The notes under the pieces: model-generated
The model's input: only the letters and a program-made list of their open reading frames with translations
Told to the model about the DNA's origin: nothing
Databases searched by the model: none
Made by a program: the position numbers and the translations under genes
Source of the DNA: Bacilli bacterium
GTDB lineage: Bacteria; Bacillota_I; Bacilli_A; RFN20; CAG-826
Direction of reading: 5' to 3'
NCBI GenBank assembly: GCA_024408335.1
Contig: JAKSVB010000001.1
Location: 186,001-250,000, forward strand
Length of the DNA: 64,000 bases
Shown here: positions 17,715 through 61,469 of the stretch, piece by piece
How positions within the stretch are numbered: position 1 is the stretch's first letter
Layout of the letters: every line of letters starts with the position of its first letter

Positions 17715-19643
17715 ATGAAGAAAAAGATTTTCGGCTTAGCTGCAATGATGTTCACAGCAGCTGCCCTCGTCGCTTGTGGTGGTAAACCAGGTGTTGAAAG
17801 CGATCACAAACACAAGTACGACACAGAAGACACAACAAAACGTGTCGAAGCTACTTGCCAAGCAGCTGGTAAGAAAGTTATGAAATGTTCTTGCGGCGAA
17901 ACCAAAGAACAAACCATCGCTAAATTAAGCCACCAATACGAAGACATCGCTGGTGGAACCGCAGCTACTTGTGATGCAGCTGGCGTCCAAAAGCAAAAGT
18001 GCAAACTTTGCCAAGGCTTAAATGACAAGACCCTTCCAGCTCTTGGTCACGACTACCAAGACCTCGCTGATCAAACCGGCGCTGTTGCAGCAACCTGTAC
18101 AACAGATGGCACCAAGAAACAAAAATGCTCACGTTGTACCTCAACCCAAGATGCTGTTGTCGAAAAACTCGGCCACGAATGGGAAGATGATTCAGATTTA
18201 GCTTCAGCAGAAGCTGCATCATGCACCTTCTCAGGCTCAGTCCCACAACACTGCAAACACGACGGTTGCCAAGAAAAGAACACAAGAAAAGTTACTGCTA
18301 CTGGTCACGAATTCACAGATCAAGGAAGCCCTGTTGCTGCTGTTGAAGATGAAACCGGCAAAACAGTTGGTGAGACAACCTACAAAGGCTACACCAAAGT
18401 TGGCTACAAGACAGAGTTCTGCGCTAAAGACAACGTTACCCGTGTTTCATGGGACGCAAAACAAGTCACAACAGACTGCAAAGCTCCATCAACCGAAAAC
18501 GTCGTTGTTGAAGGAACTGGTGAAGAAGCAACAAGAGAAGATAGATTAGAACCACACATCACCGAATCAGATGCAGGCGTCCAATTCTGGGGCCGTGCTA
18601 TCGGTAATGCTCAAATCCTTGATGAAAATGGTTCATCTTCAGCAAACTCACACGTCCACGAACCAGATGAGCGCATCGAAGGCTCATTCATGGAGTACAC
18701 CATCGATCTTGCAACTCCTCTTACCTCAGTTAAATTAGCTGCAAACCTCATCCCAGCTCAATACCTCTCAAATAATGACATTTGGCGTGCAGCAGGTGCA
18801 GCAAACGACTGGACCCCTGGTTACCAAAAAGGCGTTGACGGCGAAATGCACATTGTCAACGACTGGAGATACGTCATCACAATCGACGGTACTCAAATCC
18901 AACTCGACAGAACAGTCGACACCAAACTCATCCACTCTAACAGCGCTGACTGGTATTCAGTCCCAATGAAGGTTATGAACCTCGCAGCAGGCTCACACAC
19001 AATCAGAATTTCAATGGCTGGTGGTTACAGACACACATTTGTTAACTGGGCATTCGAAACTGGCATTGCACACGACCACGATGTCAAACTCAGTGAAAAG
19101 GCTGAAAACAGCGCACTCCACACCATCTCCTGTAAGTGTAACAAACTTGTTGGTTACGAACTCAAAGCAGCAGAAGCTACTGAAGGACAAAAAGCTCCTG
19201 TCGCAACCGATAAGGAAACTCGTTTAGGTAAAAACATCTTTGAAGACGTCTGGGCAATCAACGGCGCAGCAACTGGTATGTATGAAGTCTACCTCAACGC
19301 ACAATGCTCAGCAGGTAACGCTGACGCTGGTAAGTGGAAAGGCGACGGAACAAACGTTAACAACAATGGCGGCACAGCAGAACTTGCTAGCGAATACAAG
19401 TACAAGATTGCAATCGGTACTGGCGCAGAAGAAGAAGAACTCAACTGGGTCGGTCTTGGCGCAGTCGAAAGCTACTCAGCAGCTGGTATCAGCGAAAGCA
19501 AAGCAGCTTGGACAACAAAAGCTCTCGCAACCATCCCAGTCAACAACGGCGCAGCTACCCTTACCATCAAGAACATGAACAACGGCTACTCAATCTGGGT
19601 TTACGGCGTTCGTCTTGTCAAAGTCTCTGACTTCGTCTATTAA
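17715..19643 (+). CDS. Surface lipoprotein with Cys/His repeats and beta-sandwich modules
   Basis: A 642-residue predicted lipoprotein: signal segment and lipobox LVAC near residue 20. Residues of about 30-200 form four repeats of the pattern TC-x3-G-x5-C-x2-C followed by a hydrophobic strand and a GH[DE][YWF] motif, a zinc-ribbon-like unit common in gut Firmicutes surface proteins. The remaining two thirds contain two beta-rich modules with Trp/Tyr/Asn-rich segments (YVITIDGTQIQLD, HTIRISMAGGYRH; later ATLTIKNMNNGYSIWVYGVRLVKV) that resemble carbohydrate-binding CBM6/35-like sandwiches. Coding bias is strong (C-ending codons), suggesting high expression. A strong terminator follows. Function is unknown; glycan binding is inferred. 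Confidence 0.7.
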   Translation: MKKKIFGLAAMMFTAAALVACGGKPGVESDHKHKYDTEDTTKRVEATCQAAGKKVMKCSCGETKEQTIAKLSHQYEDIAGGTAATCDAAGVQKQKCKLCQGLNDKTLPALGHDYQDLADQTGAVAATCTTDGTKKQKCSRCTSTQDAVVEKLGHEWEDDSDLASAEAASCTFSGSVPQHCKHDGCQEKNTRKVTATGHEFTDQGSPVAAVEDETGKTVGETTYKGYTKVGYKTEFCAKDNVTRVSWDAKQVTTDCKAPSTENVVVEGTGEEATREDRLEPHITESDAGVQFWGRAIGNAQILDENGSSSANSHVHEPDERIEGSFMEYTIDLATPLTSVKLAANLIPAQYLSNNDIWRAAGAANDWTPGYQKGVDGEMHIVNDWRYVITIDGTQIQLDRTVDTKLIHSNSADWYSVPMKVMNLAAGSHTIRISMAGGYRHTFVNWAFETGIAHDHDVKLSEKAENSALHTISCKCNKLVGYELKAAEATEGQKAPVATDKETRLGKNIFEDVWAINGAATGMYEVYLNAQCSAGNADAGKWKGDGTNVNNNGGTAELASEYKYKIAIGTGAEEEELNWVGLGAVESYSAAGISESKAAWTTKALATIPVNNGAATLTIKNMNNGYSIWVYGVRLVKVSDFVY

Positions 19644-46822: not shown

Positions 46823-46900
46823 TAGTGTTAATGAAGGCGTGCGTTTTTTGCGGTTTCGTATATACTAAAATTGATTATCTAACTTTGTTAGGAGAGTGCT

Positions 46901-49900
46901 ATGGCAAAGATAAGTAAGAAAACTAAAGAACGAATTGAAAAATCGAGTAAAAGCTACCGCAGAAAGAACGTAGCCACTATCAGCATTTTGGTAGGTGGTG
47001 CCGTTATTCTTTGTGCGTTCCTTGGATTTATGCAGAACTATTCTGCAGAGCAAAGCCAAAAGAAGTCGTCTCAGAAGATTCTTGATGAAGTCACTGAGAC
47101 AATGGAAATCAATGACAAAGCAGTCAAATCAATCACATGGGAATTCAACGATCTCAACCAATCTACTCTCCAAACCCTTGGCACCTACATTACAACCGAG
47201 TTTAATAGTTTCTTTGGCGAAAACGCTGTAAGTAAGCCAGGCAAAGACCCACAAATCGAAATGAGTAAGTCATTTACCGTTCTTGCTGAAGAAATCGATT
47301 CTGACGGTGTTTTCGTTATTAACAAGACAGGCGACATCATCCTCTCTTCAGAAAAAGAACTGATCAACCAAAAGATCACTGCTGTTTTTGGTGATGGATG
47401 CATTGAACGATTCACAGCCTACACCATTGATCAAACAAGCGGAGAAGTTACTGTTAACGGCACCGTTTCATATAGAGGCGAAAAGGTCTTCTCTCCAATA
47501 GAGCACAAAACAGAAAATGGAAGATTCTTCGGATACAGCACTTTCTTCTCTCAATCTAACGGAGTCGACTATTTCTTAATTAACAGAGTTGAATCGGCCC
47601 TTCTCGATACTGAGCTTTCTTCAATTAAGGAAATCTCATCGGTTTTGGATGGAATCACCGTTGGAAAAACCGGCTTCCTTTTCGCTGTTGATTCAGAAAC
47701 CAAGACATTCTCGTATTTCGACGATGGAAAAAATAAATTAACTGGCACCGAATACCAATCAGCAGGTTTATCTGATAGCGCAGTAAGAGATTCGTATGTT
47801 GGATATCAAACAATCAAAGGAACCAAGTATTTCTGCCTTTCTCAAAAATATTCAAGTGAGACCTTTGGCGAATTCACAGTTATCGCAGCGGTTGTCGCCG
47901 CAGATGAAATCGTTGGCAAAATCGCAATGACTGTTGGCATTTCATGCTTTGCCTTCGTTATTGTCGCCGCAATTGTCATTGGTTATGGAATGATCATTAG
48001 ACGTGATATCGGCGACCACTCAATCCACATCGAAAACCAATACACAAACGACATCAAAGAAGAAAATTTAGATAACAAGATCAGATTCACCGACGAAGAG
48101 ATTCAAGAGAGAGTGAAAATCAAAATCGATGACTCCATCGAAAGAAAACAAGACATCCAATTAAGAAGAGTCAACATCGGAACCAGAAACGCCAAAGGCG
48201 TTCAATCATATTTCTCAACATATGTTGCTAAAAAGATTGCTCCGGTTATCGTTGTCGGTTCTGCCATCATTTTCGGTATTTCCTTCTTCTCACAGACCCT
48301 TATGTCTTACCAAGAGGCGATTACCGTTTCTGCAACTAGAATCACCGACGTTCAACAAATCATCAGAAACAACGAGGAAACAGATGCTTCTATCCGCGAA
48401 TATATCTCAGACCAGTATCTTTCAAAGTCAAAGCTCATCTCATACATGATCGAATCCAGCCCTGAAAGGATCCTCATGTACAACGAAAATGACTATGAGG
48501 TTTACGGAAAAGCCCTTTACGCTGATGAAAGCGATGAAGTTAAGGCAACCATCTCAGAGGAAGACTACATTCTCGAGAATTATGAAAAGTATTCCAAGAA
48601 CGTACACCCTGTTGTTATTAGAAACGAAAAAGGCGAGAGAGATTACGCTAAAGACGATTATGGCAACGTAATCTACTCTGTTGGAAGAAGCGAAATGCTC
48701 GAGAAGATTTGCGAGCTCAACAACCTCAAGTCGATTTCAATTTATAACGACCAAGGCTACGTTATCGCAACAAATACAGATTATTGGTACGAAGCCATCA
48801 CAAACGATCCTTCATCAAGACTCCACCCACTTAACGACATTATCGACAGCAAAACGAATTTCGTAGTTGAGGATGTCGACTTTGGCGAAGACGAAACCGC
48901 TAGCAAGCAGTTCATCGCCTATGCTCAGTATTATTACACATACCAAGCTCCTGATGGCAGAACCGCATTCGCAAGCCAAGCCGAATACAAAAACCAAACA
49001 GCAGCAAACCCTATCACCAGACACCGCTCCGTTGTTCAAATTGAAATAGGAATCGATGACTTCAGAGAGCTATTTGAAGTCACAAGAATCGGCTACGTCT
49101 TGAATAACATGCACGTTTCTGGCGATGATTCTTTCTTCATCGCCTTTGATTCAAGCGACGAACACCGCTGCGTGTATTCGCCAGTTCCAACCTCGATTGG
49201 TAAAACAGCAGCCGATCTTGGACTTGATTCAAAGATGTTCAAGCTCGCCGGTACATTCAATGGATTCATCACCGTTAATGGTGTTGAGTATTATCAATCG
49301 TTGTCATTGATTGGCGACTATTATTTCGGCGCTACAATCCCAACTTCATCAATCAACTCAAGCAGAAATCAGAATTCCTTATACACCTTGTTATTCTCCG
49401 TCGTTTTCATCCTTATTGCCTCTTCCTTCTATACAATTTCTAGCGATAAGGCAGACAAAGAATATGTCGACTTCTTAAAGGGAAAGCAAATCAAGGAAGA
49501 CACAGAAAAGAACTCCTTCTTCATCAAGACTGCTTCAGGTACGACAAAAACCAGCAGCGCTTCCTCAAGATACAAGAAGATCTTATGGAGAAATAAGACT
49601 GTTGAACAAAAGCTTAACGCCATTCTTATGGGTTACCTTTTCGCAGCATCCCTTATCATCGGCATCGTATTATTGAACGTCATCATCACAAGAGATCAGG
49701 ATTCAATATTCACATACATCTTCTCTGGCGAATGGGACAGGGGGCTCAACATCTTCTCAATAACCGCGGCAATGATGGTCATCGTTCTTATCATTGCAGC
49801 ATCGAACCTTATCAGAGTTCTCGTTAAGTCGTTCTGTTCATCGCTTGGTGCTAGAGTTGAAACGCTTGGCAACTTATTCATATCAATCGCTAAATACGGA

Positions 49901-50605
49901 GGCACAATTGGAGGTGCCTTCTACTGCCTCTACTTATTTGGATTTGATACGACTTCACTTCTTACCTCGGCAGGTATTCTTACAATCGTCGTTGGTTTAG
50001 GTTCCCAAAGCCTCATCAGCGATATTATTGCAGGTATGTTCATCGTCTTCGAAGGCGAATTCAGAGTCGGCGATATCGTTACCATTGGAGACTTCCGTGG
50101 ACAAGTCCTTGAAATTGGTCTTAGAACCACAAAAATCATGGACATCTCTAACAACATCAAGATTTTCAATAACGCATCTATATCGGGCGTCCTTAACATG
50201 ACCAAAGAATCGTCATTTGCTTTCGTCACTGTTGGAGTCGAGTATGGCGAATCTCTTGAAAGAGTTGAAGCGGTTCTCGCTAAAGGATTCCCAGAGATCA
50301 AAAAGAAGCTTCCTGCTATCGTTGAAGGACCATTCTACAAAGGCGTCCTTGAACTCAATACAAGCTCAGTCGATCTTGGCATCGTTGCAAAGTGTGCTGA
50401 AGAAGACAGAGTCCAACTTGCTAGAGACCTCAATAGAGAAATCTTCATTCTCTTTGGCAAGAACAACATTAACATTCCATTCCCACAAGTTACTGTTTCG
50501 TATCTAGATGAGAAGGAACATCAAGACGCTACAAAGAGCGAAATCGCAAGAAGCAAAGCATGCCTCGAAGAGGGCAAAACCATCGCGGAATGCGAAGGTG
50601 AATAA
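46901..50605 (+). CDS. MscS-family channel with two extracytoplasmic sensor-like domains
   Basis: A 1234-residue membrane protein. TM1 (about 26-45), a large exterior domain (to about 340), TM2 (about 342-366), a charged cytoplasmic linker, TM3 (446-470), a second exterior domain of about 350 residues, TM4 (827-846), another linker, then an MscS channel: three helices (907-929, 953-973, 990-1013), pore helix and beta domain (LLTSAGILTIVVGLGSQSLI, FEGEFRVGDIVTIGDFRGQVLEIGLRTTKI, near 1019-1080) and alpha/beta cage. The exterior parts look like Cache-type sensors of chemoreceptors (long helix, then strands such as GVFVINKTGDIILSS and SISIYNDQGYVIATN). So a ligand-sensing, pressure-gated channel is suggested. 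GTTAGGAGAG precedes the ATG. DegV and a small secreted protein follow. Confidence 0.8.
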   Translation: MAKISKKTKERIEKSSKSYRRKNVATISILVGGAVILCAFLGFMQNYSAEQSQKKSSQKILDEVTETMEINDKAVKSITWEFNDLNQSTLQTLGTYITTEFNSFFGENAVSKPGKDPQIEMSKSFTVLAEEIDSDGVFVINKTGDIILSSEKELINQKITAVFGDGCIERFTAYTIDQTSGEVTVNGTVSYRGEKVFSPIEHKTENGRFFGYSTFFSQSNGVDYFLINRVESALLDTELSSIKEISSVLDGITVGKTGFLFAVDSETKTFSYFDDGKNKLTGTEYQSAGLSDSAVRDSYVGYQTIKGTKYFCLSQKYSSETFGEFTVIAAVVAADEIVGKIAMTVGISCFAFVIVAAIVIGYGMIIRRDIGDHSIHIENQYTNDIKEENLDNKIRFTDEEIQERVKIKIDDSIERKQDIQLRRVNIGTRNAKGVQSYFSTYVAKKIAPVIVVGSAIIFGISFFSQTLMSYQEAITVSATRITDVQQIIRNNEETDASIREYISDQYLSKSKLISYMIESSPERILMYNENDYEVYGKALYADESDEVKATISEEDYILENYEKYSKNVHPVVIRNEKGERDYAKDDYGNVIYSVGRSEMLEKICELNNLKSISIYNDQGYVIATNTDYWYEAITNDPSSRLHPLNDIIDSKTNFVVEDVDFGEDETASKQFIAYAQYYYTYQAPDGRTAFASQAEYKNQTAANPITRHRSVVQIEIGIDDFRELFEVTRIGYVLNNMHVSGDDSFFIAFDSSDEHRCVYSPVPTSIGKTAADLGLDSKMFKLAGTFNGFITVNGVEYYQSLSLIGDYYFGATIPTSSINSSRNQNSLYTLLFSVVFILIASSFYTISSDKADKEYVDFLKGKQIKEDTEKNSFFIKTASGTTKTSSASSRYKKILWRNKTVEQKLNAILMGYLFAASLIIGIVLLNVIITRDQDSIFTYIFSGEWDRGLNIFSITAAMMVIVLIIAASNLIRVLVKSFCSSLGARVETLGNLFISIAKYGGTIGGAFYCLYLFGFDTTSLLTSAGILTIVVGLGSQSLISDIIAGMFIVFEGEFRVGDIVTIGDFRGQVLEIGLRTTKIMDISNNIKIFNNASISGVLNMTKESSFAFVTVGVEYGESLERVEAVLAKGFPEIKKKLPAIVEGPFYKGVLELNTSSVDLGIVAKCAEEDRVQLARDLNREIFILFGKNNINIPFPQVTVSYLDEKEHQDATKSEIARSKACLEEGKTIAECEGE

Positions 50606-50622
50606 TAGGAGGGGAAACGACT

Positions 50623-51516
50623 ATGAGAAACATTAGAATCATGACAGACTCCTGTGCTGACCTACCAGTCAGTTACCAGGAAGAAAAGAACATCGCCGTA
50701 ATCAACTTCTCCATTTACCTTAATGGCCAAGAAATCTATGTCGACCCAGCTTGGAGCAACATCTCTAGCGCTTCGCTTTATGGCTTCCTCCGTAAAGGAG
50801 TTAGAGTTTGGACCCTTCCTGCAACTCTCCACGAAATCAGAACAAGAATGAGAGAGGTTTTAGAAGAAGGAAGCGACATCATCTACATTGGAACATCGGA
50901 AAGACAATCAACCACTGTTACCAAAGCAAGAAGAGTCGCTAAATCACTTCAAAAGGATTTCCCTGATGCAAGAATCGCAATCGTGGATAGCCTTAACGCA
51001 TCTATTGGCATCACCTTATGTGTCAAACACGCAGTCGAATGTCTAGAAAAAGGAATGGATTTTGACGAAATCGTTGCCTCAACTGAAGCAATGAGAAACA
51101 ACGTCATCCAATTCGCAACAGTTGACACTTTGACATATCTTTCAAAAGCCAACAAAATCAACGCAAGAAGTGCTGCGCTTGGCAACTTGTTCAAGGTCAA
51201 ACCAATTCTCATTTCTGATGCTCTTGGCAACCAAACCGCTATGAGCAGAGTTAAAGGGCGTGAGAATAGCATTAACGAAATCGTAAGACTATTCTTAGAA
51301 AACATAGTTGAACCAGAAAACCAAGTTATCTATATCATTCATGGTGACGATGCTGCTGTTGCCAAAACCGTCAAAGATAAACTTAAGCAGTCAGGCGTGA
51401 CTTTCAAAGGAATCGAGACCATTTGTATTGGTGCGGTAGTCGGAGTCACAACCGGACCTGGTATGGTTGGTTTATTTGGACTTGGAAAAGAAGTCACATT
51501 TAAGGCTGAAGAATAA
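50623..51516 (+). CDS. DegV-family fatty-acid-binding protein
   Basis: A 297-residue two-domain protein of the DegV/FakB family, which binds a fatty acid and presents it to the kinase FakA. It begins RNIRIMTDSCADLPVSY; the conserved segments IYIGTSERQSTTVTKA, IVDSLNASIG and the C-terminal IHGDDAAVA and GAVVGVTTGPGMVGLFGLG are visible. TAGGAGGGG lies before the ATG, 17 bases after the MscS gene, so they form an operon. Its last base is shared with the next start (TAATG). Confidence 0.9.
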   Translation: MRNIRIMTDSCADLPVSYQEEKNIAVINFSIYLNGQEIYVDPAWSNISSASLYGFLRKGVRVWTLPATLHEIRTRMREVLEEGSDIIYIGTSERQSTTVTKARRVAKSLQKDFPDARIAIVDSLNASIGITLCVKHAVECLEKGMDFDEIVASTEAMRNNVIQFATVDTLTYLSKANKINARSAALGNLFKVKPILISDALGNQTAMSRVKGRENSINEIVRLFLENIVEPENQVIYIIHGDDAAVAKTVKDKLKQSGVTFKGIETICIGAVVGVTTGPGMVGLFGLGKEVTFKAEE

Positions 51517-51791
51517 TGAAAAGTCTTCTCTTCCTTTTGGCGTTACCTCTTATGGCGGCTCCAGCAGCCGTTTCTTTTGAGGCACAGGAGAATGAGGTTA
51601 TTCTCTCTCCTATGATGGCTGCAAAGGAAGACGAGAAGGAAGAAGATCCAGCCGTTGGTGCGTGGATTGGAGGAGGACTTGTAACTGCTGCAGGAATTGG
51701 GGCAGGAGTCACGGTTTTCAATAACAAAAACCGCGTAATGAACGAGCCTCGCAAAGAAAAGAAAAAGAAAGATAAGCAGGATTTGCAGTAA
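51516..51791 (+). CDS. Small membrane or secreted protein
   Basis: A 91-residue protein that starts within the DegV stop codon (TAATG). It has a short N-terminal hydrophobic signal (KSLLFLLALPLMAAPAAVSF), an acidic middle (KEDEKEEDP), a second hydrophobic Gly/Ala-rich helix (GAWIGGGLVTAAGIGAGVTVF) and a strongly basic Lys-rich tail. The topology would place the tail inside. No family was recognised; its coupling to DegV and the MscS gene suggests a linked membrane role. Confidence 0.6.
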   Translation: MKSLLFLLALPLMAAPAAVSFEAQENEVILSPMMAAKEDEKEEDPAVGAWIGGGLVTAAGIGAGVTVFNNKNRVMNEPRKEKKKKDKQDLQ

Positions 51792-51855: not shown

Positions 51856-52866
51856 TTATAAGACAAAATTAACAACTACGATGACTGCGATTAAAGCGGC
51901 TATCATGACAATAGGTAAAACGATATTCTTAAGGATTTTTACTGATTTCTTTTCTTTAACTATAACGTCAGTTGGTTCTTGAACGACCTTTTCGCCATGA
52001 ATCTCTTTGAGGATGTTTTTGAAATCGATCGCATGGAATGCGCATGATTTTTGGCATTCGCCACACATGATGCATTCATGATCGCCGACTTTCTTGACGT
52101 CCATTTTGCATTCGCTTACGCACTTGCCACAGTTTTTGCAGTTCTCTTCAATGACCTCGACACCTAAGATTGAGAACTTATTAAATAATCCAAATAACGC
52201 GCCGAGAGGGCAAAGGAACCTACAGAAAAATCTGTAAATGAAGACCGATGCGACAATGACCGCGACCATCACGAAGAACTTCCACGTGAATAGCGATCCT
52301 AAGTTATCAAGAAGGAAACCTTTACTAGGGTTTGATAATAAGAATAACGACGCCTCAAACGTTCCAACAGGACATACGTATTTGCAGAACGTAGGGACAC
52401 CGGTGTTCATGAAAATGCCATAGCCCAAAGGAACTCCTATGACGAGGACAAGAAGAAGTAAGTATTTGAAATAGCTTAAGACTCTTGTGACTTTGCTTTT
52501 CTTAAGTTTTGGAGTCTTGATTTTGTATGCGAGTTCTTGGAGAAGCCCGGCAGGGCAAAGCCATCCACACATGGTTCTTCCTAGAATAACAGCTTCAAGA
52601 AGGATGATGCCAAGAACGTATGCAGGCCATGTTGCTCCGCTTTCGCTTAAGGCAGCTTGAAGAGAACCGATTGGACACGCTCCTATTGCGCCAGGGCAGG
52701 AATAGCAGTTCATGCCAGGAACGCAAACTGACTTTGAGTCGCCTTTAAAAATGTTTCCAGTGATGAAGCCCTTGATATTCGCGTTATATAAAAGAGCCGC
52801 GTATATTTGAATCAGCCTTCTCTTAGTCGGCATTATCTTCGAAAAGAATTCTTTGATCTTGCTCAT
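51856..52866 (-). CDS. NapH/YccM-like 4Fe-4S membrane protein
   Basis: A 336-residue polytopic membrane protein with several Cys clusters. GMNCYSCPGAIGACPIG is near the N-terminus, CGWLCPAG, CKYVCPVG and CRFLCPLG are at helix ends, and a ferredoxin-like pair CKNCGKCVSECKMDV and CIMCGECQKSC lies in the C-terminal half, before a final helix. NapH-type proteins pass electrons from the cytoplasm toward extracytoplasmic enzymes. It is the third gene of a tight minus-strand cluster (spacings 5 bases and 1 base) with a CXXC membrane protein and a TlpA-like lipoprotein. Confidence 0.85.
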   Translation of the reverse strand: MSKIKEFFSKIMPTKRRLIQIYAALLYNANIKGFITGNIFKGDSKSVCVPGMNCYSCPGAIGACPIGSLQAALSESGATWPAYVLGIILLEAVILGRTMCGWLCPAGLLQELAYKIKTPKLKKSKVTRVLSYFKYLLLLVLVIGVPLGYGIFMNTGVPTFCKYVCPVGTFEASLFLLSNPSKGFLLDNLGSLFTWKFFVMVAVIVASVFIYRFFCRFLCPLGALFGLFNKFSILGVEVIEENCKNCGKCVSECKMDVKKVGDHECIMCGECQKSCAFHAIDFKNILKEIHGEKVVQEPTDVIVKEKKSVKILKNIVLPIVMIAALIAVIVVVNFVL

Positions 52867-52867
52867 A

Positions 52868-53503
52868 CTAACCTATTCCTATGCATTCTAAGCAGATCAT
52901 AGTGGCTTTGGATAAAACCATACCTGCTTGTTTGTTTAAGACACCAATAACGATGAACGTTAAGGCAACAAGAATGACGCCTGCTCTTACTCCATTAACT
53001 ATCATTCTTTCTTTCTTGCTTTTGGTTTTTGCTTCTTTTGGCTTTGGAGCCGTAACAAAAGCGGCTCTAACAAGAGAAGCGACAAGAAGGATTATTACAA
53101 AAGGCAAAAGATAATACATGAAAGCCAAGAAGTCTTTGTTGTACTCATATGAGAAATGTTTCTTTTGGACTAAGTAACCGATGGTGAACACTGCGCAAGC
53201 AAGGATAAGAACGAGATAGGCAATGTTGATTATGAAATATGTCTTTTCTGACACGATTTTCTTAAAATACCTTGTTTTTGCAGGTGTTTTTTTCGTTTCT
53301 GACTTAGTAAACATGGAAATTACGAAGACAACAGCCCAAAGAATAACAATAGCGAGGATTTGCAAAAACACCTTTGCTATTAGCTTTTTTGTGTAATGGC
53401 TGTTAAGCCTTATTGCTTGAATAATAAAGAGCAAGCCTAAAACGACCGTAAGAACGGCTAATACGATGTTGATTATCTTGTTGAAGAGCTTGTTCTTAAT
53501 CAT
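52868..53503 (-). CDS. Membrane protein ending in a CD1871A-type CXXC motif
   Basis: A 211-residue protein with about four helices (for example IINIVLAVLTVVLGLLFII, FLAFMYYLLPFVIILLVA), a Lys-rich loop, and a last helix (AGVILVALTFIVIGVLNKQ) that ends ATMICLECIGIG. The final part matches the small stand-alone CD1871A-family CXXC proteins, which occur beside TlpA and 4Fe-4S genes in clostridia; here it appears fused to a membrane domain. The two Cys residues may shuttle electrons between the neighbours. The family match is from memory. Confidence 0.65.
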   Translation of the reverse strand: MIKNKLFNKIINIVLAVLTVVLGLLFIIQAIRLNSHYTKKLIAKVFLQILAIVILWAVVFVISMFTKSETKKTPAKTRYFKKIVSEKTYFIINIAYLVLILACAVFTIGYLVQKKHFSYEYNKDFLAFMYYLLPFVIILLVASLVRAAFVTAPKPKEAKTKSKKERMIVNGVRAGVILVALTFIVIGVLNKQAGMVLSKATMICLECIGIG

Positions 53504-53508
53504 CTTGC

Positions 53509-54126
53509 CTACATGTATAAGTTTATCGCATTAACTATGGCTTTGTTCCATTGTGATTCTGTCATGCTGCCGGTGATTGCTTCTCCTAATTGGTGGCCAT
53601 GCTCATCGATAAAGATGGAATATGGAATGTATTCGGTACTTGCGATGAAGTTTCTTAGACCGGCGCAAGGATAGAGACTAGGATAGGTAACGCCTGTTTG
53701 TTTAACGATTGCGTCAGCCTGAGTCTTCTTATTTGGAAGGAGGTCTCCGGTGCTTGGGTCGAAAATGTCGCTTAGAACGCCTACAACTTGGAAATCGACT
53801 TCTGCAAAATACCTATGGAATTCTCCCAAATATGGCATTTCTTTAACGCAAGGACCGCAGAAAGTGCCCCAAAGATTCAAAAGAGTTAGTTTTCCAGCAA
53901 ATAAAGTTTGGTCATATGTTTTGCCATCAAGACCTTGGGTTGTGAATTCTCCAACAACTTGTGTGAGTCCTTCGCATTTGTCTTTGCGGCTAACTGAAGC
54001 TGTAGGGTTCTCTGGTATTGAAGGAGCCAAGGAGGTTGATGATTGATCGTCCTCGACTTCATAGAAGTTACAGCTAGTGCAAATTAGTGCTGCCATTAAT
54101 AACGCTGATAATCTAAGTTTTTTCAT
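53509..54126 (-). CDS. TlpA-like thiol-disulfide lipoprotein
   Basis: A 205-residue thioredoxin-fold lipoprotein: signal with Cys residues at ICTSC, linker, then the domain with the active site GTFCGPCVKEMP and the cis-Pro region STEYIPYSIFIDEHG. It should act outside the membrane as an oxidoreductase fed with electrons by the two downstream membrane proteins. AGGAGGA precedes the ATG; a 143-base gap separates it from the TetR gene upstream. Confidence 0.88.
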   Translation of the reverse strand: MKKLRLSALLMAALICTSCNFYEVEDDQSSTSLAPSIPENPTASVSRKDKCEGLTQVVGEFTTQGLDGKTYDQTLFAGKLTLLNLWGTFCGPCVKEMPYLGEFHRYFAEVDFQVVGVLSDIFDPSTGDLLPNKKTQADAIVKQTGVTYPSLYPCAGLRNFIASTEYIPYSIFIDEHGHQLGEAITGSMTESQWNKAIVNAINLYM

Positions 54127-58064: not shown

Positions 58065-61000
58065 ATGTTTAAAAAATTATTACTCACACTTTTGATAAGC
58101 GGTCTTTCTGCTCCAGTACTTGCAGCTAGCGAGCCAACACAACTCGTTACAAATGACTTTATTGCCAAGTACACTGACAGAAACTCCTATATCAAAGCCG
58201 GTTCTGCTTTAAACAACAGAATCTGTGACGAAGGTTTTACTCTTCTCAAAAACTTAGATGGCTTCCTCCCAATGGAAGGTGTCGAAAAGATTTCTGTTTT
58301 TGGTAAGAGCAGCACAAGCCTTGTCTATGGCGGTGGCGGATCAGGTAGTGGTCACGTCAGCGGTGAAACCCAAATCGACTTACAAAAGTCACTTACAAAC
58401 GTAGGCTTCGAACTTAACGATGCCCTTACAAGTTTCTACAAGGACAACAGCAAATCCGGCAGTGGCCGTACAAACGGTAACGATGGCTGGAAGGGAAACT
58501 CAGAAGTTACCATTGGTGAAACTCCAATCGAAAAATACGACGCTACATTAAAATCAACATTCAGCGAGTATAACGATGCCGCTATCATGGTTCTTAGCCG
58601 TGAAGGTTCAGAAGGCTGCGACGTCTTAACAATCGACGCAACAGACTCAACCAAATATGGTTTCTCAGAGAAACATGCTCTCGAATTATCAGATAACGAA
58701 CAAGCCTTATTTGATATGATCAAAGAGAACTTTGAAAACATCATCATCCTTATCAACTCAGGTAACATTTTCCAATGTGATAAGTTCGAAAACGATGATC
58801 AAGTCAAAGGCATTCTTTGGATGGGTAACCCAGGTGCTACCGGCGCTTCAGCTGTTGGCCGTATCTTATGTGGTGATGTTAACCCATCAGGCCACACCGT
58901 TGATACTTGGACCCGTGATTTCTCAAAAGATCCAACTTGGCAAAACTTCTCAGACAACCGTCACACTGGCGAAGCTATTCCAAACACCAGCAACAGATTA
59001 AAGCATGCTTCACAAGATACCATGTTTAACCCAGACGGAACTCCAGTCGTTAGCCATGGTACATTAAAGACCGATCCAAGATATATCGAAGAAGCTCAAA
59101 AGGTTGTCGAAGGCGGCCTTAACGGTGTCAAACCATCTTCATATGTCTCATACGAAGAAGGTGTTTACCTCGACTACCGTTACTACGAAACTCGCTACCA
59201 AGACATGATCAAAGCTGATGGTCAAAAAGCGGCAGATGATTGGTACGAAAGCGAAAACGGCGTAATCTTCCCATTCGGTTATGGCTTAAGCTACACCGAA
59301 TTCGAACAAGAAATCGTCGGCGCTACAGTCACCAACAGAACTCTTGAAAGCGAAAAAGAAGAAATCAGAGTTAAAGTTAAAGTCACAAACACTGGCTCAG
59401 TCCCTGGTAAGGATGTTGTTCAACTTTACTGGAAAGCTCCATACATCTCAGGCGAAATCGAAAAAGCCGACCGTGTCTTATGTGCTTTCGACAAGACCGA
59501 TATTCTTGAACCAAATGAGTCAGCAGTCTATGAATTAACATTCGCTCTCGCTGATGTCGCTAACTATGACTACAGCGATGCTAACAAGAACAACTTCAAA
59601 GGCTACGAACTCGATGAAGGCAAATACGAAATCAGCGCTAACAAGAACGCTCACGAAGAATTTGACTCAGTTAAGTTCAATGTCAAGAAAGGCGGCATCA
59701 AGTTCGAAAACGACCGTTTCACCGGTAACAAAGTCGAAAACCGCTTCTCTGGCAATGACTTCTACAGCTCATTACCATTAGAAAACGACATCGGATTCGA
59801 TCACTTCTCACGTGAAGATTTCGATGAAACATTCCCAACCCACCCAACTATTGCTGACCGTACTCTCAAAGAAGGCAGCAGAGTTCCAGAATTCTACAAC
59901 CACGAATTCAACCTCGACGACGTCGAATTCGATGAAGAGTTCTTATATGTTCCTGCAGCAACAAAGAAGACCAAGGAAGACATTGAAGCCTTAGGTTGGA
60001 CACAAGCAGAAACAACCTTAACCAAGGACCAATCAATCCAATTCAAAGAAATGGTCGGTTTATCATTGGATGACCCAAAATGGGAAGAATTCATGAACCA
60101 AATGACCTATGCTGAAATGCTTCAATTCGTTACTGGTGGTAGCTCACACAACCCAGCTATCAGCAGAATGGATAAGCCATCATCAGGCGACTCAGACGGC
60201 CCTTCACAATTCCAAATCATCTGGTGGACAGGCGCCCCAATCGTTGCAGCAACCTTCAACGTTGAACTTGCAAAAGAACAAGGCGAAATGGTCGGTACCG
60301 AAGCACACCTTACTGGTACTTATGGTTGGGCAGGCCCAGCATGTAACTTACACCGTTCACCATTCGGTGGTCGTAACTTCGAATACTACTCAGCAGACGC
60401 TTTCTTAAGCGGCCGTATGTGTGGCAGAGTTGTCGCAGGCGCTACAGACTTAGGTATGTACTGCTTCTTCAAACACTTCGCTGTCAACGATCAAGAAAAG
60501 AACCGTGAAGGCGTTACCGTTTACCTCTCAGAGCAAACACTCCGTGAGTTATACCTCAAACCATTCCAAATGGCAGTCCAAGAAGGCAAAGCTACTGGCA
60601 TCATGTCTTCCTACAACCGTTTAGGCTTAATGGAAACCGCAGCATCATACCCATTATTAACCGAAGTCTTAAGAAATGAATGGGGCTTCAAAGGCTCAAT
60701 CATCTCCGACATGACCCACCGTGGAAACAGCAGCATGAATGGTAAGTGCTACGAAAACATCAACAACCGTGTCTTATCAGGCTGTAACAACCAACTTGAT
60801 AGCCAAAACTACTCCGATGACTGCAACGCAAAATGGAGCAAAGAATTACACTGCCCAGTCTACAAGAGCAAGACCCATGGCGAAAACACCCCATCATACT
60901 CATGGTGGTATGCTGTCCGTACATGCGCTAAAGAAGCTATGTGGATGTGTGCAAACTCAGGTGCAATGAAAACTGCTCTCACCCCTGAATTAGACGTTAC

Positions 61001-61469
61001 ATTAACCAACGTTATCGATGAACGCTTAGAAGCTAAAGTCGGTGATGCTATCAACGTTGAAATCGTTCTCCCAGAAGAAGCTGAAGTTGGCGCAACCCTT
61101 AATGGTAAGGTCGTTGCAGGCGTTGAAACATCAATCAGCGCAGCAACCCCACTTCCAGAAGGACTCAAATTAGAAGGAAATGTCATCTCTGGCACCGTCA
61201 ATAAAGAATGGAACGGATTCGTTCACATCTTATTCGACGTTACCTTCGAAGGCCAATCAGACCCAGTTAGATATGGTTACTCATTCGAATTATATGTCGC
61301 AAAAGATAAATTAGTTCAAGAGTACGTCTCAGGAACTGGTAGCAACAAGGGCGAAGCAAACGTTGGCTTAATCGCTGGCGTCGCTGCAGGCTCAGTTGTC
61401 GTCGTCGCAGCTGCAGCAGTTGCTGTCGTCTTAGTTATGAAAAAGAAAAAGGCAGCTAAAGCTGACTAA
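58065..61469 (+). CDS. Glycoside hydrolase family 3 with permuted domains, cell-anchored
   Basis: A 1134-residue enzyme. Signal peptide (1-20, ending VLAAS); the usual C-terminal GH3 domain comes first (EGFTLLKN near residue 60 to FPFGYGLSYTEFE near 405), then a fibronectin-like domain (VRVKVTNTGSVPGKDVVQLY region), then the TIM-barrel nucleophile domain from about residue 676 (KHFAVNDQEKNR; nucleophile Asp882 in GSIISDMTHR). The order is the reverse of common GH3, as in some Ruminococcus beta-glucosidases. A further beta domain and a C-terminal membrane helix with a Lys-rich tail (VVVVAAAAVAVVLVMKKKK) hold it on the cell surface. Likely substrates are beta-glucosides or xylosides. Strong codon bias suggests high expression. 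Confidence 0.88.
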   Translation: MFKKLLLTLLISGLSAPVLAASEPTQLVTNDFIAKYTDRNSYIKAGSALNNRICDEGFTLLKNLDGFLPMEGVEKISVFGKSSTSLVYGGGGSGSGHVSGETQIDLQKSLTNVGFELNDALTSFYKDNSKSGSGRTNGNDGWKGNSEVTIGETPIEKYDATLKSTFSEYNDAAIMVLSREGSEGCDVLTIDATDSTKYGFSEKHALELSDNEQALFDMIKENFENIIILINSGNIFQCDKFENDDQVKGILWMGNPGATGASAVGRILCGDVNPSGHTVDTWTRDFSKDPTWQNFSDNRHTGEAIPNTSNRLKHASQDTMFNPDGTPVVSHGTLKTDPRYIEEAQKVVEGGLNGVKPSSYVSYEEGVYLDYRYYETRYQDMIKADGQKAADDWYESENGVIFPFGYGLSYTEFEQEIVGATVTNRTLESEKEEIRVKVKVTNTGSVPGKDVVQLYWKAPYISGEIEKADRVLCAFDKTDILEPNESAVYELTFALADVANYDYSDANKNNFKGYELDEGKYEISANKNAHEEFDSVKFNVKKGGIKFENDRFTGNKVENRFSGNDFYSSLPLENDIGFDHFSREDFDETFPTHPTIADRTLKEGSRVPEFYNHEFNLDDVEFDEEFLYVPAATKKTKEDIEALGWTQAETTLTKDQSIQFKEMVGLSLDDPKWEEFMNQMTYAEMLQFVTGGSSHNPAISRMDKPSSGDSDGPSQFQIIWWTGAPIVAATFNVELAKEQGEMVGTEAHLTGTYGWAGPACNLHRSPFGGRNFEYYSADAFLSGRMCGRVVAGATDLGMYCFFKHFAVNDQEKNREGVTVYLSEQTLRELYLKPFQMAVQEGKATGIMSSYNRLGLMETAASYPLLTEVLRNEWGFKGSIISDMTHRGNSSMNGKCYENINNRVLSGCNNQLDSQNYSDDCNAKWSKELHCPVYKSKTHGENTPSYSWWYAVRTCAKEAMWMCANSGAMKTALTPELDVTLTNVIDERLEAKVGDAINVEIVLPEEAEVGATLNGKVVAGVETSISAATPLPEGLKLEGNVISGTVNKEWNGFVHILFDVTFEGQSDPVRYGYSFELYVAKDKLVQEYVSGTGSNKGEANVGLIAGVAAGSVVVVAAAAVAVVLVMKKKKAAKAD

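Follow-up and report, generated by a model that had tools for sequence, protein, structure and literature searches.

Can a mechanosensitive channel carry its own receptors for chemistry outside the cell? The question is raised by one gene at 46901-50605 on the forward strand of the window, by which we mean the whole 64,000-nucleotide stretch analysed here (contig JAKSVB010000001.1, positions 186,001 to 250,000, from a Bacilli bacterium genome of 1.35 Mb in 18 contigs). An earlier note on this DNA described the product as an MscS channel fused to two extracytoplasmic sensor domains of Cache type. Our results support that description: sequence comparison and structural modelling point to an MscS pore and vestibule at the C-terminus, preceded by two divergent double-Cache (dCache) sensors, and the same fusion recurs in other genomes. 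The gene is laid out as follows, with residues numbered on the window protein and transmembrane helices abbreviated TM.

46890-46894, +: AGGAG, resembling a ribosome-binding site, upstream of the channel ATG (sequence)
46901-50605, +: whole two-sensor MscS channel gene, a single open frame of 1234 codons with an ATG start
46970-47026, +: TM1, residues 24-42, N-terminus cytosolic (hydropathy)
47036-47920, +: sensor 1, predicted extracytoplasmic dCache-type domain, residues 46-340 (hhalign, AF2, link to a PF02743 protein in genome G384)
47921-47986, +: TM2, residues about 341-362 (hydropathy)
47987-48229, +: cytosolic loop joining sensor units 1 and 2, residues 363-443 (37-47% identity among full-length homologs)
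48230-48298, +: TM3, residues about 444-466 (hydropathy)
48299-49381, +: sensor 2, predicted extracytoplasmic dCache-type domain, residues 467-827 (hhalign, AF2, Foldseek)
49382-49444, +: TM4, residues about 828-848 (hydropathy)
49445-49609, +: cytosolic linker between sensor unit 2 and the channel, residues 849-903 (27-44% identity)
49610-50518, +: channel module (extra TM5, MscS TM1-TM3, beta domain, alpha/beta vestibule), residues 904-1206 (PF00924, alignments to MscS structures in PDB, homolog identity)
49943-50038, +: helix lining the pore, residues 1015-1046; hydrophobic gate at I1029/L1033 (mapped on a conserved Q)

Before the channel module, hydropathy located four TM helices (residues 24-42, 341-359, 446-464 and 829-847), giving two successive TM-sensor-TM units (sensors at residues 46-340 and 467-827), as had been proposed. 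TM helices within the channel module were found at residues 907-925 (the extra TM5) and 949-967, together with MscS TM2 and TM3. With a cytosolic N-terminus, the helix count and hydropathy would place the MscS vestibule in the cytosol, as expected.

The C-terminal third had been read as an MscS pore and beta domain, and this held. PF00924 (MscS beta domain) matched residues 1038-1099 (E 8e-13, 48.7 bits against a cut-off of 20.2) and the solved MscS structure 3udc aligned with residues 984-1207 (E 4e-37); pore homology was thus present within residues 1000-1180, and the alignment to residue 1207 indicates that the C-terminal alpha/beta domain, the vestibule, is present as well. I1029 and L1033 are the equivalents of E. 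coli L105 and L109, and gate hydrophobics and pore glycines are retained; the position of E. coli Gly113 is Ser1037. PF21088 fell under its own cut-off (20.7 vs 23.1), and PF21082 was above cut-off in P0002, P0003 and the G128 homolog and was not listed for the window protein. The best solved relative of the module is Thermoanaerobacterial MscS (3udc/3t9n; NCBIfam MscSThanab), whose chains of 282-285 residues are without sensor domains. The MscSThanab model matched the window protein at E 3.1e-43, yet with 148 bits against a 500-bit cut-off. Sequence homology marks residues about 904-1206 as a bona fide MscS pore with its vestibule.

For the exterior regions, 23 dCache_1 domains were gathered from same-class genomes as a reference set and profiles were compared by hhalign. 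Sensor 1 and sensor 2 matched this set at P 9e-5 and P 1.5e-4, respectively, and matched each other at P 1.4e-9, with all three alignments colinear across 175-202 columns. Ten column-shuffled controls gave values of 0.36-0.92, and the MscS region gave 0.43. AF2 models of both units showed a long N-terminal helix, two alpha/beta modules (distal and proximal) and an exit helix, all between two TMs; the predicted local distance difference test score was 77 for residues 1-880 and 76 for sensor 2 alone. Foldseek searches of these models against PDB returned almost exclusively chemoreceptor and histidine-kinase dCache domains, at probability 1.00. The best E was 3.5e-6 for the two-sensor model, a search that does not specify which sensor was matched, and 2.0e-8 for sensor 2 alone (PscC tandem Cache, 6mni), a search that is clean for that sensor. 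Other proteins reached by profile searches were a hybrid histidine kinase, GGDEF proteins and one protein of dCache_1-PAS-GGDEF-HD layout, whose PF02743 match had E 7.7e-23; sensor 1 was linked to a PF02743 protein in G384. A sensor-like dCache fold was indicated in both exterior regions, and profiles and models together strongly support their assignment as divergent dCache sensors.

Two of the GGDEF proteins (L066 2346-4190 and L071 1414-2871) carry sensor-2-related sensor domains that Pfam does not see, and appear to represent an unannotated Cache-like subfamily.

Four other genomes encode the same architecture as a single frame (G052, 1210 aa; G034, 1185 aa; G128, 1202 aa; G107, 1185 aa), and partial, contig-cut or masked copies were found in six (G036, G015, G117, G156, G071 and G263). 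Of 279 genomes from the order, 11 in total carry the fused channel, and these belong to three families. A twelfth profile match, in G012, proved to be a GGDEF protein with no channel. No fused channel beyond the 11-genome set turned up in samples of 395 class genomes and 392 phylum genomes. Among the matches listed in a PF00924 survey of 295 phylum genomes, where G107 does not appear, the fused channel measured 1237 aa and every other MscS frame 191-459 aa. In a channel-domain tree, a 99/99 branch split nine fused channels from 26 stand-alone MscS, which fits a single origin. One ancestral fusion, retained in several genera, is strongly supported by these comparisons, and the parts of the fused channel, their order, conservation and homologies are established at the sequence level.

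The source genome also has three ordinary MscS genes, and the ordinary paralogs are about 350 aa in length. A contig search using P0001 returned an unrelated MscS as its sole match. A 1377-aa listed frame at G000:C13:79987-81048, considered as a second fusion in the source genome, was really a separate 349-aa MscS beside a 1008-aa open reading frame, with stops between them. On the same contig, C13, this 349-aa paralog and 1008-aa frame lie with a 218-aa membrane protein and a GH3-like protein (L035 3937-11883). A 338-aa paralog, also on C13, has an aquaporin/GlpF-like gene on one side and two secreted or membrane proteins on the other (L036 5103-10309), a possible osmotic-response cluster.

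What might two sensors do for such a channel? We give slightly better than even chances to a tension-type MscS channel in which outside ligands, acting on the two dCache modules of the same chain, adjust the opening threshold. Each subunit would supply two sensors around the pore, and outside small molecules, or wall or membrane components, would bind one or both modules. Binding would shift the sensor TM helices in a chemoreceptor-like manner, and the cytosolic loop and linker would relay the shift to TM5/TM6 in the MscS core, where movement would alter the tension needed to open the pore. Solute release would then start or stop according to outside chemistry plus turgor. The products of the two downstream genes, a DegV protein on the cytosolic side and a small TM protein on the membrane side, may serve as regulatory or assembly partners. 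It is the effect of ligand on the channel that we infer here. MscK, whose mutants have an altered K+ requirement (PMC1890815), is a precedent for an MscS-type channel influenced by chemistry outside the cell; the statement in the earlier note that MscS channels normally open by tension alone was too strict.

Several results weigh against ligand sensing by the exterior domains. Pfam Cache models gave zero matches at E<=1 in any member of the fused family, and more sensitive tests with controls were used for this reason. No match was found when the source genome was searched for PF02743, and a PDB profile search using the sensor alignment gave chance matches only. Foldseek template modelling scores, target-normalised, were about 0.2-0.46 (<0.5), with a root-mean-square deviation of ~10 A; module orientation in the AF2 models is therefore not to be trusted, and it is local 3Di similarity and profiles, rather than superposition, that carry the fold assignment. 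The Cache-type resemblance claimed earlier stood on the agreement of hhalign with its controls, AF2 and Foldseek, yet with no Pfam Cache match and poor global superposition. R-x-W-Y is the signature of amino-acid dCache domains (dCache_1AA). It was not found in either sensor, where WY alone is conserved, in sensor 2, and so no ligand can be named. Identity to nearer homologs was 36-42% in the sensors, below the 71-78% seen over residues 976-1206 of the pore and vestibule (~50% in G107). Finally, MscS is 7-fold and dCache domains are often dimeric, a possible symmetry mismatch for coupling of sensor to pore.

The identity values are consistent with a constant channel whose sensing surfaces change faster, and tethers would fit them too. 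In that explanation the protein is a tension-only MscS gated by wall strain, and its dCache units anchor it to the wall or to a partner or transmit force. It is favored by the AF2 models, in which TM1 and TM3 continue outward as very long helices, and by the faster divergence of the sensors and the missing ligand motif. However, the nearest folds are ligand-binding domains of chemoreceptors and kinases, and related same-class sensors carry GGDEF and kinase outputs. We consider force-transmitting tethers unlikely, though worth keeping in view.

The genes downstream of the channel suggest another explanation. The following features were identified there.

50607-50612, +: AGGAGG, resembling a ribosome-binding site, before degV (sequence)
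50623-51516, +: degV-family gene, 297 aa, in a distinct channel-linked clade (PF02645, clade 100/99)
51516-51791, +: small protein gene, 91 aa, with a signal-peptide-like start, acidic stretch, Gly-rich TM and Lys-rich tail (directly downstream of degV)

The channel stop and degV are 17 bp apart, and degV and the small gene overlap by 1 nt (TAATG). The earlier report of a channel located with degV and a small membrane protein was borne out across the family. In each of the eight family-f1 loci with sequence (G000, G052, G034, G036, G128, G107 (partial), G117 and G156), the gene immediately after the channel is degV. At the distant G263 locus an aldolase-like gene follows and there is no degV, giving 8 of 9 loci with downstream sequence overall. 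The small gene comes after degV in 7/7 loci with sequence beyond degV, with a Gly-rich TM like GLVAVGGAGAGV; the G128 small protein seems split between two frames. Because of this spacing and conservation, co-transcription of the three genes, which had been asserted, is likely on sequence grounds. The promoter scan gave no support for an operon (8 sites vs 12.0 in shuffles), and terminator-like sites lay mostly within genes, so that the scan is no evidence either way.

The small proteins (51516-51791; L037, L038, L039, L062 and L064) form a family of about 85-127 aa, always downstream of a channel-linked degV. No Pfam or NCBIfam family was over cut-off among the members tested.

A tie between the channel and membrane lipid state through DegV had also been proposed. 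In its full form, the three genes would be a membrane-lipid homeostasis module in which the channel reports lipid state through a linked DegV fatty-acid carrier. The window DegV is a family member (PF02645, E 3.4e-50, 171 bits), with whole-length homology to DegV/FakB structures (1pzx; FakB1 5woo/6alw). The channel-linked DegVs form their own clade (100/99); they are 39-54% identical to the window DegV, and five further DegVs encoded in the source genome are 21-26% identical to it. The source genome has seven DegV loci and two strong FakA-like (PF13684) loci, and a DegV protein of S. pyogenes without a major role in exogenous fatty-acid uptake or use affects membrane lipids (PMC10138225). In FakB1, the fatty-acid carboxylate is held in a network of Thr62, Ser95, Ser171 and His270 (PMC8892158). 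All seven complete linked DegVs have Ser or Thr in place of His270, whereas His is kept in the five other DegVs examined from the source genome. Other network residues of FakB1 (5woo/6alw) are replaced in the linked proteins as well, at the Ser171 position and at the Thr62 position, the latter mapped from a weak pairwise stretch; the Ser95 position was not settled in this mapping. With these replacements, "fatty-acid-binding protein" becomes a family-level guess for the linked DegV. One FakA gene, moreover, adjoins a different DegV, and the G263 channel has no adjacent degV. The lipid link retains family membership and conserved adjacency and is weakened by the loss of the FakB1 residues. The channel-linked clade is probably, from its sequences, a subfamily with a different ligand or role, and we regard a lipid-homeostasis module as rather improbable.

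The MscS part might also no longer conduct and instead act as an oligomeric scaffold for a receptor, as the change of E. coli Gly113 to Ser and the extra TM5 before the core could suggest. We find this very improbable; the pore glycines and the hydrophobic gate residues are retained, and no other part of the protein is as conserved as the pore and beta region. The possibility that separate receptor and MscS genes were wrongly fused by a chimera or frame error in the assembly, conceivable in a draft genome of 18 contigs, is refuted by the same join, in one frame and with the same downstream genes, in four other genomes.

Three other features of the window were recorded. A GH3 glycosidase at 58065-61469 has its domain order reversed, with the C-terminal domain (59-313) first, then Fn3, then the N-terminal catalytic domain (727-916). 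A 642-aa protein with no Pfam match is encoded at 17715-19643. A convergent cluster at 51856-54126, on the reverse strand, encodes a polyferredoxin-like membrane protein, a 211-aa membrane protein and a thioredoxin-like lipoprotein, and is possibly an extracytoplasmic redox module.

How does the fused channel compare with known systems? E. coli MscK and MscM, like the window protein, have an MscS core at the C-terminus of a chain of >1000 aa; MscK, whose gating responds to K+ in addition to pressure (PMC1890815), aligns with the window protein only in the channel part (948-1206), and we know of no Cache-type sensors reported in either. In the bacterial cyclic-nucleotide-gated MscS family, an MscS channel is fused to a cytosolic, C-terminal ligand-binding domain. 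The window protein shares the pairing of MscS with ligand-binding domains and differs in having two extracytoplasmic N-terminal modules. Chemoreceptors and kinases with dCache domains (PscC 6mni, McpH 8bmv, Mlp37 6iov) share the TM-dCache-TM unit (Foldseek E 2e-8 to 1e-7) but have one sensor per chain and a chemotaxis or kinase output, in contrast to two sensors and an MscS channel. Cache is described as the largest prokaryotic extracellular sensor superfamily, with listed outputs that are mostly enzymes, chemotaxis proteins and transcription factors; the ion-channel outputs in a 2016 census were VWA_N and VGCC_alpha2 only (PMC4822843). A search of open-access full-text literature for MscS and Cache terms, with incomplete coverage, found no paper describing such a fusion.

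A bolder form of the ligand-sensing reading is a receptor-channel family in which two dCache modules gate an MscS pore directly by ligand, without kinase or methyl-accepting intermediates, and in which the channel, a repurposed DegV and a small Gly-rich membrane protein work as a three-gene unit. We offer it tentatively, at somewhat less than even chances. In a Cache-MscS chain, solute flux and turgor would be coupled directly to the sensing of chemicals, and the chain would be a testable model for an outside ligand resetting the threshold of a mechanosensitive channel. With its conserved partners, the divergent DegV and the small TM protein, it would come as a ready-made genetic unit.

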